Origin: a virus
Strand: one strand, 5' to 3'
DNA: 20,620 nt
IMG/VR virus record: IMGVR_UViG_3300035698_013859
Span: 1 to 20,620 of that record
The translations under genes and the position numbers were made by a program. The notes beneath the pieces were generated by a model that did no database searches, had not been told where the DNA came from, and saw only the letters and a program-made list of their open reading frames with translations. Shown in pieces: positions 955 through 7,078 of the stretch (position 1 is its first letter; every line of letters begins with the position of its first letter).

Positions 955-1250
955 AGCCAAATGATGGAAAAAGAGTGCATCCAACTCAAAAACCAGTAGA
1001 TTTAATTTCCCAAATGATTAATTTATGGGCTAAGGAATGTAAATCAATCCTTGACCTCTTTGGTGGTTCAGGCTCAACTCTTATAGCTTGCGAGCAATTA
1101 AATCGTAAGTGCTATATGATGGAACTTGACGAGCATTATTGTCAGGTAATCATAGATAGGTATATAAAGTTTGTTGGAAGTCAGGGTGAGGATGTATGTT
1201 TATTGAAGGATGGAAACAAGATACCTTATAAGGAGGTTATAAATGGCTGA
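951..1250 (+). CDS. C-terminal fragment of a beta-class DNA N6/N4 methyltransferase, catalytic motif missing
   Basis: The 99 residues carry the hallmark C-terminal elements of phage ParB-methylase proteins: HPTQKPVDL near residue 10, the S-adenosylmethionine loop DLFGGSGST (motif I, about residues 35-43), and the CEQLNRKCYMMELDEHYC segment (motif II) with the final helix. In beta-class enzymes the catalytic motif IV (DPPY/NPPY) precedes the target-recognition region and the HPTQKP segment. That entire part, probably 150-200 residues, is absent here and upstream. The product could still bind the cofactor but should not methylate. It overlaps the ParB-domain gene by 4 nt in another frame, and its end overlaps the small terminase gene, so it is kept inside a coupled array. 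It is either decay in progress or a retained remnant with another role. Confidence 0.8.
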   Translation: MKPNDGKRVHPTQKPVDLISQMINLWAKECKSILDLFGGSGSTLIACEQLNRKCYMMELDEHYCQVIIDRYIKFVGSQGEDVCLLKDGNKIPYKEVING

Positions 1251-1668
1251 CAATGGTAATCTATTACATGGTAATCCTGAGACAGAATTTAAAAGCGGTC
1301 GGGAAGCGGTCGAGAAAGGTAAATCAGGAGGAGTAGCAAGCGGCATATCTAAAAGAAAGGCTGGTGAGCTTAGTAGCAAGCTTATTATGGCTGTTAATAT
1401 CTGTACTCAGAAAGCACAGGAAGAAGCTAACAACTGCGCAAAAGAAGCCACAAGTCCAGAAGAAAAAAAGGTATTAAAAGAAGCCGCAAAAGATATAGCG
1501 GAGTTTGGCGTAGATGTTTATGAGCTAATGAAGATCATCAACTCAAAATGCAAGAAAGAGACTAAATTAAAAGCCCTTGAGTTATTATGGGACCGCACAG
1601 AAGGAAAAGCCACTCAAAAATTGATAAATGTCGAGAGAGAATACTCAACAGAAGTAGATTATTTGTAA
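1243..1668 (+). CDS. Terminase small subunit-like protein (KGG-type N-terminus)
   Basis: The 141-residue product begins with the NGNLL... and GKSGGVASGISKRK pattern seen in phage proteins encoded just before the large terminase and commonly annotated as small terminase or KGG DNA-binding proteins. The rest is helical, ending in a KALELLWDRTEGKATQK segment that is also typical. It starts behind a perfect AAGGAGG site and overlaps the methylase fragment by 8 nt. The assumed role is recognition of phage DNA for packaging. The large terminase lies 1.2 kb further on, separated by an apparently independent unit. The functional call rests on position and the N-terminal pattern, so it is moderate. 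Confidence 0.55.
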   Translation: MADNGNLLHGNPETEFKSGREAVEKGKSGGVASGISKRKAGELSSKLIMAVNICTQKAQEEANNCAKEATSPEEKKVLKEAAKDIAEFGVDVYELMKIINSKCKKETKLKALELLWDRTEGKATQKLINVEREYSTEVDYL

Positions 1669-1674
1669 TTTCTC

Positions 1675-1703
1675 TTGACTTTTGTGAAAAGATAATCTAT
1701 AAT
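1675..1703 (+). promoter_or_regulatory. Sigma-70-type promoter for the HTH-lipoprotein-J unit
   Basis: TTGACT (1675-1680) and TATAAT (1698-1703) are separated by exactly 17 bp, and the HTH gene starts 43 nt downstream of the -10 box. Transcription would begin near 1710. This is one of the two best promoter matches in the window, and it starts 7 nt after the small terminase stop. Confidence 0.8.
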
Positions 1704-1715
1704 ATACCTTATAGA
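1696..1715 (+). promoter_or_regulatory. Operator-like dyad over the -10 box
   Basis: Perfect 7-bp inverted repeats TCTATAA (1696-1702) and TTATAGA (1709-1715) are separated by 6 bp. The left arm lies across the -10 box and the right arm covers the expected transcription start. A dimeric HTH repressor bound here would block the promoter; the first gene of the unit is such a protein, so autoregulation is the natural inference. Confidence 0.55.
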
Positions 1716-1745
1716 GTCTGAGTTATCAATGAGAGGATATAGATT

Positions 1746-1940
1746 ATGATAGGAATAGAGCGAAAAATTAGAAAATTACAAAGTATGGGGTTGAGTATAA
1801 TCACTATTGAAAAGAATAGCGGTCTTGGTAATGGCACTATAACAAGAATACTAAGAACTAAAAAATTTAGAAGAACTACTGAGCTGAAGATCAACAGTTT
1901 TTATTTGAGAGTTATTAAAGAATTGACTGAGGAATTATAA
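1746..1940 (+). CDS. Small XRE/Cro-like helix-turn-helix protein
   Basis: The 64-residue basic protein has a clear helix-turn-helix at about residues 16-37: LSIITIEKNSGLGNGTITRI, where LxxxTIEKxSGLxNGTI matches the XRE-family pattern of first helix, turn glycine and recognition helix. It lies directly downstream of a strong promoter with an overlapping dyad and has a GAGAGGA site about 8 nt before its ATG. Its end carries the ribosome site (GAGGAA) of the following lipoprotein gene. The likely role is repressor/autoregulator of this unit. At 64 residues it is about the minimum size for a Cro-like regulator. Confidence 0.7.
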   Translation: MIGIERKIRKLQSMGLSIITIEKNSGLGNGTITRILRTKKFRRTTELKINSFYLRVIKELTEEL

Positions 1941-1942
1941 CT

Positions 1943-2275
1943 ATGAAAAAACTATTATTACTATCAACTATTTGCTTATGTTTAACTAATTGCGCCGTTG
2001 GCAATTGGTATATGTCCGAACTAGAAAAGTATAATCCTAGCAAAAGGCAGCTCGAGCAAATCAAAATAGAATCGCCAGAATATTATGAAATGGTTAAAAA
2101 TGGAGAGTTTAAAATCGGGATGCCAGAAGAATACTTCAAGATAAGCGTTGGAAAACCAAAAAGAATAAACGAGTCTTGCAGTAATAGCGGATGTGTTAAG
2201 CAATATGTTTTATATAATCACTATGTTTATATAAGAGATGGCAAAGTATCTTCTTGGAGCGGCAGAAATGGGTAA
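1943..2275 (+). CDS. Putative lipoprotein with BamE/SmpA-like C-terminal segment
   Basis: The 110-residue product has a classic export signal: MKK, a hydrophobic core (residues 4-14) and a lipobox-like LTNC with the lipidated Cys at position 17. Asn at -1 is slightly off consensus. The mature part contains GEFKIGMPEEYFKISVGKP near the middle, then YVLYNHYVYIRDGKVSSW, which follows the layout of SmpA/BamE-type outer-membrane lipoproteins (GMs...v...lG.P...n...w.Y......y..dGkv). Two further cysteines (ESCSNSGC) could form a disulfide in the periplasm. Its place behind its own promoter and regulator suggests a host-altering (moron) gene rather than a virion protein. Surface exclusion or envelope modification is speculation. 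The signal and lipobox are clear; family membership is moderate. Confidence 0.7.
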   Translation: MKKLLLLSTICLCLTNCAVGNWYMSELEKYNPSKRQLEQIKIESPEYYEMVKNGEFKIGMPEEYFKISVGKPKRINESCSNSGCVKQYVLYNHYVYIRDGKVSSWSGRNG

Positions 2276-2894
2276 TGAAAGTTTATATGAAGTATTAGGT
2301 ATACCAAAAAAGACAAATAATAAGAAGGCAATTAGGAATGCTTATATTTCAAAGTCTAAAACTGATCATTCAGATGCTGGCGGTGAGCCGGAAAAGTTTA
2401 AGTTAGTTGCAAAGGCCTATCAAATCTTAAAGGATGATGAGAATAGGAAGAAATATGATAATGGTGAATCTGTAGATCAGATATTGACCCCAAATAATAA
2501 TAAAGCCTACACTATTTTATCTACAATATTGTGTGGTGTTATAGAAGGTGCAGACCCAACAACTCAAGATATTATTGAATTAGTTGAGCAAAATATAAAT
2601 GTAAATATTGCTGAAATTCAATCCAAAATAGCCAAGGCAGCTAAAGAGCAAAGTAATTATGAAACCTTTCTTAAAAAGGTAAAGAAGAAAAAGAAGAAGA
2701 AGGGCAGCGCCTTTATGATTGATGTTGCAAAAACACAAATAGAAGGAAAGAAAGAAACTATTAGTAAGCTTAAAAGTGAAAAAGAGTCTTATGAAGAAGC
2801 AAAAGAAATAAATCAAAACTATTGCTATGAAGCTGATCCAGTAGTAGCCTCAAATCTTATGTGGTCTTCATTTACTGCAACAGGAGGATTTTAA
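2268..2894 (+). CDS. J-domain protein with HSD in place of HPD, plus coiled-coil tail
   Basis: I start at ATG 2268 (MGNESLYEVLG), with GGAG at 2256-2259 upstream and an 8-nt overlap with the lipoprotein gene; an in-frame ATG at 2238 is possible but less well placed. Residues 6-66 form a J-domain: LYEVLGI, a helix II with AIRNAYISKSK, the loop TDHSDAGG, then FKLVAKAYQILKDDENRKKYD. The signature tripeptide that stimulates Hsp70 ATPase, HPD, reads HSD (residues 34-36). Residues 100-185 are helical, with a lysine-only stretch at about 137-145. The closest general pattern is phage J-proteins encoded near terminases; their proposed role is recruiting host DnaK. Whether this one can do so without the proline is open. 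Confidence 0.75.
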   Translation: MGNESLYEVLGIPKKTNNKKAIRNAYISKSKTDHSDAGGEPEKFKLVAKAYQILKDDENRKKYDNGESVDQILTPNNNKAYTILSTILCGVIEGADPTTQDIIELVEQNINVNIAEIQSKIAKAAKEQSNYETFLKKVKKKKKKKGSAFMIDVAKTQIEGKKETISKLKSEKESYEEAKEINQNYCYEADPVVASNLMWSSFTATGGF

Positions 2895-2906: not shown

Positions 2907-2954
2907 ATGTCTTCGCAATTAGTCCCTATAATGTCTTCACAGTTAGCACCTGTA
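2907..2954 (+). repeat. 24-bp tandem duplication at the terL start
   Basis: Two adjacent 24-bp units (2907-2930 and 2931-2954) match at 19 of 24 positions and encode MSSQLVPI then MSSQLAPV. Each begins with ATG. The ribosome site serves the first; the second lies too far for it without an extended spacer. Confidence 0.75.
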
Positions 2955-4244
2955 TCTGTAAGAAATCTTATAATTCGTAAAGAAGACTATCTACCTCATC
3001 AATACGACTTTTTGACGTGTTGTCATAAAATAAAGGCTCTAGTTAGTGGTTATGGCGGCGGCAAGACCTATGTTTTTATTAAAGAATGCTTAAAGCAGCA
3101 TATCACTAATAGAAGGGACACAGACGGCATGAGTGTGGGCTGGGTGATCTATCCAACCCTTGAGCTTGCCAATGACTTGTTTGTTGATGATTTCAAGGAT
3201 CTGCTCGACAGAAAGAATATACCCTATATTTATAACACCAAATACATGACCTTCAAGACTGTGTATGGCAAAATCAAGATATATACTCTTGAAAAGCCAA
3301 ACAGAATGATCGGGTCCAACTTAACATGGGCCGGAGCCGATGAGTTTGACACATCTCTAGAAAAGAATAGCTCGCAGGCCTATAAAAAGATTATTGCTAG
3401 ACTGCGTGGAAATGACCACGGTGTTCTTTTCATCGTAACCACCCCGGAAGGATTCAAGGCCACTTATAATATCTTTGTTGTTAATGACAATAAAGACAAA
3501 ATGATATTTCACGCAAAGACAACTGACAATCATCATTTGCCAAAAAATTATGTGGAATTACTTTATCAGGAATATGGAGAAAGAGAGATAAAAGCCTATG
3601 TAAATGGTGAATTTACAAATATGAATACTGGTACTGTTTACTATGGATTTGATAGAGAAAAAAATATTGTTGAAGATAACAGCCTTGAAATAGATAAAAA
3701 TCTTCCGGTCAATCTGTTCTTTGACTTTAACGTTTACCCTTTATCTTGCGGGTGGGGGCAGCATAAGAACACTGAGGAAATACGGATAATAGATGAATGT
3801 GTTATGCGTGGCCACTCGAACACATGGGACCTATGCTCTGAATTAAAGAAAATACTTCCAAGGGACATTGACGTTGTGATATACGGTGATGCAAGTGGAA
3901 GCTCGAAAAGTACCAAAAACAACCTATCTGACTATCAAATAATAGACAATGAATTAAGAGATTATTTCAATTCTATAACTTATAAAGTACCGAAATCTAA
4001 TGGAGCGATAAAAGATCGTGTTAATTGTGTAAATGCCAAGCTGCAAAAAATATACTTGAAAATTAATAAACGATGCGTTAAGTTGATAAGAGATTTAGAG
4101 CAGGTTTGTTATACTGAAAAAGGCGATGTTGATGGTAGCAATATTGAACTTACTCATATTTCTGATGCCTTGGGCTATTATGTAAATGCTGAATTTCCCA
4201 TTGTAAGGAGGCTATTAAATAGAGAAGAAACAACACAGGTATAA
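2907..4244 (+). CDS. terL: Terminase large subunit (packaging ATPase-nuclease)
   Basis: The 445-residue protein has both terminase domains. The ATPase part has the Walker A SGYGGGKT (residues 47-54), the Walker B region LTWAGADEFD with the D145-E146 pair, and the coupling motif TTP at 178-180. The RNase H-like nuclease part has the acidic residues expected for metal binding: FFDFN (D273), YGDAS (D328) and HISDA (D420). The length is normal for the family. It pumps DNA into the prohead and makes the terminal cut, working with the portal gene that follows 3 nt downstream. AAGGAG lies 8 nt before ATG 2907. The first 16 residues are an internal duplication with a second ATG at 2931, so a start 24 nt later is also possible. 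Confidence 0.95.
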   Translation: MSSQLVPIMSSQLAPVSVRNLIIRKEDYLPHQYDFLTCCHKIKALVSGYGGGKTYVFIKECLKQHITNRRDTDGMSVGWVIYPTLELANDLFVDDFKDLLDRKNIPYIYNTKYMTFKTVYGKIKIYTLEKPNRMIGSNLTWAGADEFDTSLEKNSSQAYKKIIARLRGNDHGVLFIVTTPEGFKATYNIFVVNDNKDKMIFHAKTTDNHHLPKNYVELLYQEYGEREIKAYVNGEFTNMNTGTVYYGFDREKNIVEDNSLEIDKNLPVNLFFDFNVYPLSCGWGQHKNTEEIRIIDECVMRGHSNTWDLCSELKKILPRDIDVVIYGDASGSSKSTKNNLSDYQIIDNELRDYFNSITYKVPKSNGAIKDRVNCVNAKLQKIYLKINKRCVKLIRDLEQVCYTEKGDVDGSNIELTHISDALGYYVNAEFPIVRRLLNREETTQV

Positions 4245-6906: not shown

Positions 6907-6942
6907 CTGAACACAAGGTGGGTAGGTGTTCAGAACTACCCA
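6907..6942. repeat. Two interlocked perfect inverted repeats
   Basis: Arm A CTGAACAC (6907-6914) pairs with A' GTGTTCAG (6926-6933), and arm B TGGGTAG (6919-6925) pairs with B' CTACCCA (6936-6942). The order is A-B-A'-B', so the two stems exclude each other or could form a knotted fold. All 15 base pairs are perfect. The linkers are 4 nt (A to B), 0 nt (B to A') and 2 nt (A' to B'). Confidence 0.85.
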
Positions 6943-6991: not shown

Positions 6992-7020
6992 TTGACAACA
7001 AATATAATATAGAATATAAC
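6992..7020 (+). promoter_or_regulatory. Strong promoter of the scaffold/capsid operon
   Basis: TTGACA (6992-6997, perfect -35) and TATAAC (7015-7020) are separated by 17 bp, with very AT-rich DNA upstream. The predicted start near 7027 gives a leader of about 50 nt before the scaffold gene. A second TATAAT at 7003 is too close to this -35 to pair with it. Confidence 0.7.
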
Positions 7021-7032
7021 TAAAAATGCTTA

Positions 7033-7050
7033 GTAAGTGCGTTAACTTAC
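7033..7050 (+). promoter_or_regulatory. Leader stem-loop of the capsid-operon mRNA
   Basis: GTAAGT (7033-7038) and ACTTAC (7045-7050) form a 6-bp perfect stem with a 6-nt loop, a few nt into the predicted transcript and about 20 nt before the ribosome site. A 5'-proximal hairpin of this kind can protect a message from RNase E, as is known for other phage mRNAs. Confidence 0.4.
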
Positions 7051-7078
7051 AAAAATTCAACTCAAAAAAGAGGTTAAA

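Follow-up and report, generated by a model that had tools for sequence, protein, structure and literature searches.

The superinfection-exclusion proteins T5 Llp, Cor, and Rtp45 are small phage lipoproteins that a lipid anchor fixes to the periplasmic side of the outer membrane. T5 Llp blocks the receptor from the periplasm (PMC9586334), and Rtp45, which has a disulphide, acts from the periplasmic side (PMC12685063). Morons, in the usual sense of the term, are horizontally acquired genes that are transcribed independently of the other phage genes (PMC6469090). Here, we analyzed a virus record of 20,620 bases (hereafter, the window; 34.7% G+C), the plus strand of which carries a packaging, head, and tail operon. 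A predicted lipoprotein of 110 amino acids (aa), compared with about 6 kDa for Rtp45, is encoded between the two terminase genes behind its own helix-turn-helix (HTH) gene, whereas llp adjoins the gene for the receptor-binding protein. The initial annotation had taken this block for a self-contained moron of three genes, possibly expressed in lysogeny. Its sequence observation is confirmed and the insertion is real, but the reading needs three changes: two genes rather than three, a setting that is probably lytic, and a slot that extends across a clade.

Along the window, the order runs from the small terminase gene (terS, by position) through promoter, HTH gene, lipoprotein gene, and J-domain gene to the large terminase gene (terL). 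The features are as follows, with L002 denoting the close relative described below:

1243..1668, plus strand: small terminase gene (141 aa), so named from its position; borders the block on the left.
1675..1703, plus strand: sigma-70-type promoter TTGACT-17-TATAAT, 11/12 matches; hexamers conserved in L002.
1692..1701, no strand assigned: left arm ATAATCTATA of a perfect inverted repeat; candidate operator half-site overlapping the -10 hexamer.
1738..1747, no strand assigned: right arm TATAGATTAT of the same repeat, running into the HTH start codon.
1746..1940, plus strand: 64-aa HTH protein with a lambda-repressor-like fold, probable autoregulator, from its model, fold matches, and L002 homologue.
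1943..2275, plus strand: 110-aa lipoprotein precursor with an LTNC lipobox (Cys17), from its signal peptide and its homologues in L002 and phage M1EM-1 (gp21).
2268..2894, plus strand: J-domain protein (PF00226) with a helical C-terminal domain and HSD for HPD, starting at a Shine-Dalgarno-led ATG; absent from L002.
2907..4244, plus strand: large terminase gene (PF03237, phrog_2), 78% identical to L002; right border of the block.
6992..7020, plus strand: second internal promoter TTGACA-17-TATAAC before the scaffold gene, kept with its leader in L030.

The name of the left border rests on position, since the product of 1243-1668 gave no terminase family match; it is homologous to the gene in the same position of a more distant relative, L042 (32.6%, E 2e-13). 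Just before it, a ParB-like open reading frame (ORF; 535-954) runs into the coding region for the C-terminal portion of a DNA methyltransferase (951-1250). Relatives such as L008, L009, and L015 have a single fused ParB-methyltransferase, so the catalytic middle seems to have been lost in the window. At the right border, terL starts with a near-tandem duplication (2907-2960; MSSQLVPI MSSQLAPV) that is absent from L002. The G+C fraction of the block is 0.29-0.34, compared with 0.36 for terL, and does not mark the block as foreign by composition.

Only one close relative was found, IMGVR_UViG_3300035698_016682 (L002/L030), with terL 78% and portal 68% identical, and the cassette is common to the window and this relative only. 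Direct searches of 50,697 phage records with the lipoprotein and the HTH protein gave nothing useful, and scans of viral contigs with two-row alignments of each returned L002 again and nothing else. The order in L002 is terS, promoter, HTH gene, lipoprotein gene, and terL. BLAST found no homology between the two terS products beyond a short C-terminal tail. Since L002 shares promoter, HTH, and lipoprotein but has no J gene, the conserved core of the block is, as judged from the sequences, the promoter plus the HTH and lipoprotein genes, which have stayed together although terS changed.

We then considered the promoter, which begins 7 nt past the terS stop codon. A site with at least 11/12 matches is expected by chance on the plus strand of this 77-nt stretch with a probability of 0.0011. 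In the whole window, three such sites were present against 1.2 expected, so the weight of this promoter rests on its place and conservation rather than on its score. The counterpart in L002 reads TTGACT-17-TACAAT; the hexamers of the two promoters are 11/12 identical while the spacers agree at 5/17 positions (Fisher P 0.0011). The near-consensus promoter annotated right after the small terminase gene is thus retained in L002, the one relative with which the window has the block in common. The annotated operator-like dyad fared less well. A perfect 10-bp inverted repeat, ATAATCTATA/TATAGATTAT, does flank the -10 hexamer and the HTH start codon (chance about 0.025 in a 141-nt stretch), and TATAGATTAT occurs without mismatch in the window only at the two arms. 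The pair is not conserved in L002, which keeps a single TATAGAT half-site just before its HTH start codon. As sequence, the repeat is suggestive of an operator, and with the dyad kept in L002 as a half-site only, autoregulation of its own transcript by the HTH protein is plausible.

The terminase junction was also compared in 56 viral terL loci found with an 11-row terL alignment. In about 39 of these, at 38-44% terL identity and not all independent, terS abuts or overlaps terL and there is no block, which bears out the annotated insertion between the terminase genes. Four loci at 52-53% terL identity (L039-L042, with L040 and L041 nearly duplicates of each other) encode in the gap a different small protein, which carries a Sec-type signal peptide and a conserved pair of cysteines (ECxYFYSG...LVSVQC); its gene overlaps or directly adjoins terL. 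These proteins have no detectable homology to the window lipoprotein, so the resemblance lies in gene position and export. Weak matches of the exported proteins to the lysozyme inhibitor MliC and to T4 Spackle came from the signal peptide and were gone when mature sequences were used.

Promoter-like sites were present in the gaps of three of these four loci, the near duplicates L040 and L041 included. L042 has a 10/12 promoter just before the exported-protein gene (P 0.013) and the L040 gap an 11/12 promoter-like site (P 0.018), while no promoter-like site was found in the L039 gap. The L039 gap encodes a 54-aa sigma-70 region-4-like protein (476-640; PF04545 above the Pfam cut-off). In L040 (1205-1978), and also in L041, 775 nt without a convincing ORF separate terS from the exported-protein gene. 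This gap shows strong predicted folding (z -3.24), gave no convincing Rfam match and no tRNA or tmRNA, and possibly holds an unknown structured RNA. The junction thus holds a lambda-repressor-like HTH and a lipoprotein in the window and L002, a sigma-region-4-like HTH and a signal-peptide protein in L039, a structured 650-nt non-coding stretch and a signal-peptide protein in L040 and L041, and a promoter and a signal-peptide protein in L042. Compared at this level, the terS-terL junction resembles a variable slot in which one clade of phages carries small exported proteins. That it is a dedicated slot, repeatedly refilled with a promoter or small DNA-binding regulator and an exported-protein gene overlapping or adjoining terL, is a possibility that we put forward tentatively.

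These sequence comparisons give good support to an accessory cassette that has its own promoter. Our favored explanation, which has a serious though less than even claim, is that a promoter, a self-limiting HTH protein, and a lipoprotein that most likely blocks superinfecting phages form an accessory terS-terL cassette, and that the J gene is a later, independent insertion. For it we counted the presence of promoter, HTH, and lipoprotein together in L002 despite the unrelated terS, the empty or differently filled junctions of the other relatives, a full-length homologue of the lipoprotein in another phage (below), and the precedent of T5 Llp and Rtp45. Against it we counted that a single relative shares the cassette, that the operator pair is not kept there, and that the 1675 promoter may mainly serve terL and portal, as no terminator follows. 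Pressed further, that last objection becomes an explanation of its own, in which the promoter is chiefly an internal one for terL, portal, and minor head genes while HTH and lipoprotein ride along. Tight packing of the downstream genes, with no terminator between the lipoprotein or J gene and terL, agrees with such a role, as does the second sigma-70-type promoter, which stands before the scaffold gene in both phages. There, the promoter and its 5' leader are conserved (window 6992-7078; L030 6074-6155), including a strictly conserved leader hairpin, GTAAGT-GCGTTA-ACTTAC (window 7033-7050), so a promoter inside the late genes is not the special mark that the block had been credited with. Yet relatives in which terS abuts terL leave no gap for a promoter, so terL needs none there, and the promoter-like sites of L042 and L040 also accompany exported-protein genes. 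We therefore regard a promoter dedicated chiefly to the structural operon as rather unlikely. The long non-coding gap before the scaffold promoter also contains two interleaved inverted repeats, CTGAACAC/GTGTTCAG and GGGTAG/CTACCC (window 6907-6941).

The signal peptide of the lipoprotein, with Cys17 (LTNC), is kept in L002, where the counterpart is 44% identical. The asparagine at the -1 position of this lipobox is atypical and not favored in the classical consensus. Beyond the lipobox, Cys79 and Cys84 are conserved between the two proteins, and in sequence terms these two cysteines fit an exported protein. The structure model, confident outside the signal region, consists of a C-terminal helix and four strands. 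Among viral structure models, the lipoprotein matched named phage lipoproteins, and it is homologous over its full length to gp21 of Salinibacter phage M1EM-1 (hhalign 94.4%, E 9.4e-8), which we equated with the viral model match by its 113-aa length and signal peptide. gp21 has a clear lipobox, and its gene adjoins an HTH_3 regulator gene on the same strand, like the pairing in the window. In contrast, the gp21 gene is found on the opposite strand, past the genes for the tail and putative lysis functions rather than between the terminase genes, and the protein is without the two cysteines conserved in the window lipoprotein.

The protein had been annotated as BamE/SmpA-like. It has the G-M-x..G-x-P motif and weak fold matches, but neither the whole nor the mature sequence matched any Pfam or NCBIfam profile, that of BamE/SmpA_OmlA included. 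The best solved-structure matches were BLIP-like and OsmE-like and none was significant (best E 0.07); in the fold comparison, OsmE reached a probability of 0.97 but an E-value of 0.12, and BamE an E-value of 1.8. With BamE/SmpA, OsmE, and BLIP-like periplasmic proteins, the modeled lipoprotein shares a helix with an antiparallel sheet and the motif, but no family-level sequence match. We therefore rejected membership of the BamE family, the motif being in register with Escherichia coli BamE in an alignment far below significance (1.4% probability). These same likenesses in fold and motif are what would speak for a role in outer-membrane assembly or lysis, as a BamE-like factor or outer spanin, rather than in exclusion; with the BamE alignment so weak and no adjacent inner spanin or lysis genes, we think such a role improbable. 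By analogy to the phage lipoproteins named at the outset, envelope modification or superinfection exclusion is the likeliest role, although none of the tools used picked up a likeness in sequence to Llp, Cor, or Rtp45.

The last gene of the block probably has a history of its own. The annotated J-domain protein before terL matched Pfam PF00226 (E 4.5e-12; 46.3 bits against a cut-off of 27.8). Its ORF was listed from 2238, but we placed the likely real start at 2268 because of its J domain and an ATG led by a Shine-Dalgarno sequence (GGAG), overlapping the lipoprotein stop codon. Its C-terminal part is homologous to those of the J proteins of Rhizobium phage RHph_N65, Alteromonas phage R7M, Brevundimonas phage Strzyga, and contig L003, scoring 22.0 bits where the best of 1000 shuffles reached 11.4. 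The three named phages have proteins of the same architecture but keep HPD and carry the gene in replication or other non-packaging regions, while in the window it adjoins terL and reads HSD; all four phage homologues compared keep HPD. In simulations of DnaJ, the P34A substitution misorients H33 and D35 (PMC13012618), and in view of its HSD motif, the window protein is doubtful as a stimulator of DnaK, and so is the host DnaK use that had been proposed.

In L002, no J gene lies between the lipoprotein gene and terL. At the lipoprotein gene's end, the sequence is CTTGGAGCGGCAGAAATGGG in the window, with the start of the J gene, and CTTGGAGAAGTAAATAATGTGTCA in L002, with the start of terL, so that one ribosome-binding site serves J in the former and terL in the latter. 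Because the exported-protein genes of distant relatives also overlap or abut terL, the simpler reading of these sequences would be that the J gene is a separate, later insert in the window lineage. The three genes are thus not one unit, and lipoprotein and J protein were rejected as a functional pair since L002 has the one without the other.

We next weighed whether the block is a classical moron, that is, an independently transcribed unit expressed from a prophage in lysogeny. Like phage morons, it is, on the sequence evidence, a lineage-specific insertion against empty relatives with a conserved promoter of its own and a putative operator, and it encodes a small lipoprotein of the sort associated with lysogenic conversion; this much of the moron proposal holds. 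The block differs in showing no signs of lysogeny, in sharing its operon with a second internal promoter, and in its open end: no terminator-like site was found after the lipoprotein or J gene, so the 1675 promoter should read into terL and the block is not self-contained. In none of 18 records was an integrase found. The window itself is a fragment, but the 18 include a related record of 41,353 bp with a 127-bp terminal repeat that we took as complete. Its scanned early genes comprise a thymidylate synthase, a DnaB-like helicase, and RecE-like and Sak4-like recombination genes, with nothing typical of a temperate phage among the replication genes scanned. A search of genome contigs for host prophages with this terL returned none beyond one 37% match, a Cloacimonadota metagenome-assembled genome contig that begins inside terL. 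The suggested expression in lysogeny thus found no backing in these records; a lysogeny-expressed moron is unlikely, a slim chance at best, and the phage is probably lytic.

Under the favored cassette reading, the HTH protein is a regulator. The annotated 64-residue protein downstream of the promoter (gene at 1746-1940) is kept in L002 (51-52% identical). Its AlphaFold2 model has four helices (pLDDT 90.5), and its Foldseek matches were mostly lambda-repressor-like regulators or antitoxins at a TM score of about 0.6, every one with E > 1; no Pfam HTH match was found. A comparison with the early-region HTH protein of L040 gave no support for homology. That the protein instead serves DNA packaging, as a second small-terminase-like component, is the least credible alternative. 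In favor of it are the location between the terminase genes and the retention of the protein in two phages whose terS products are unrelated; against it, repressors and antitoxins predominate among the fold matches, packaging proceeds in more distant relatives that do not have the protein, and the dyad sits at the promoter of the HTH gene itself.

Together, these results suggest how the cassette may work. It would occupy the junction of terS and terL in a single branch of a siphophage-like virus clade, and host RNA polymerase would use the 1675 promoter without a phage factor, as its near-consensus form suggests. By binding the dyad that flanks the -10 hexamer and start codon, the HTH protein probably limits its own transcript. 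The lipoprotein would be exported, lipidated (as predicted at the signal-peptide level), and come to lie on the periplasmic side of the outer membrane; there, by analogy with T5 Llp and Rtp45, its most likely action is to block the receptor or some other step in the entry of superinfecting phages. Transcription would continue from the cassette into terL, no terminator intervening. The J gene, probably inserted later between lipoprotein gene and terL, would have taken over the ribosome-binding site, and its product may not drive DnaK.

This corrects a tempting reading, as lipoprotein and J protein would adjoin through separate events and form no functional pair. If right, the terS-terL junction would be a named genomic position for exchangeable envelope-acting proteins in a clade of uncultivated phages, and it would offer a simple route to novel proteins for superinfection exclusion or surface modification in phages that have no cultured host.
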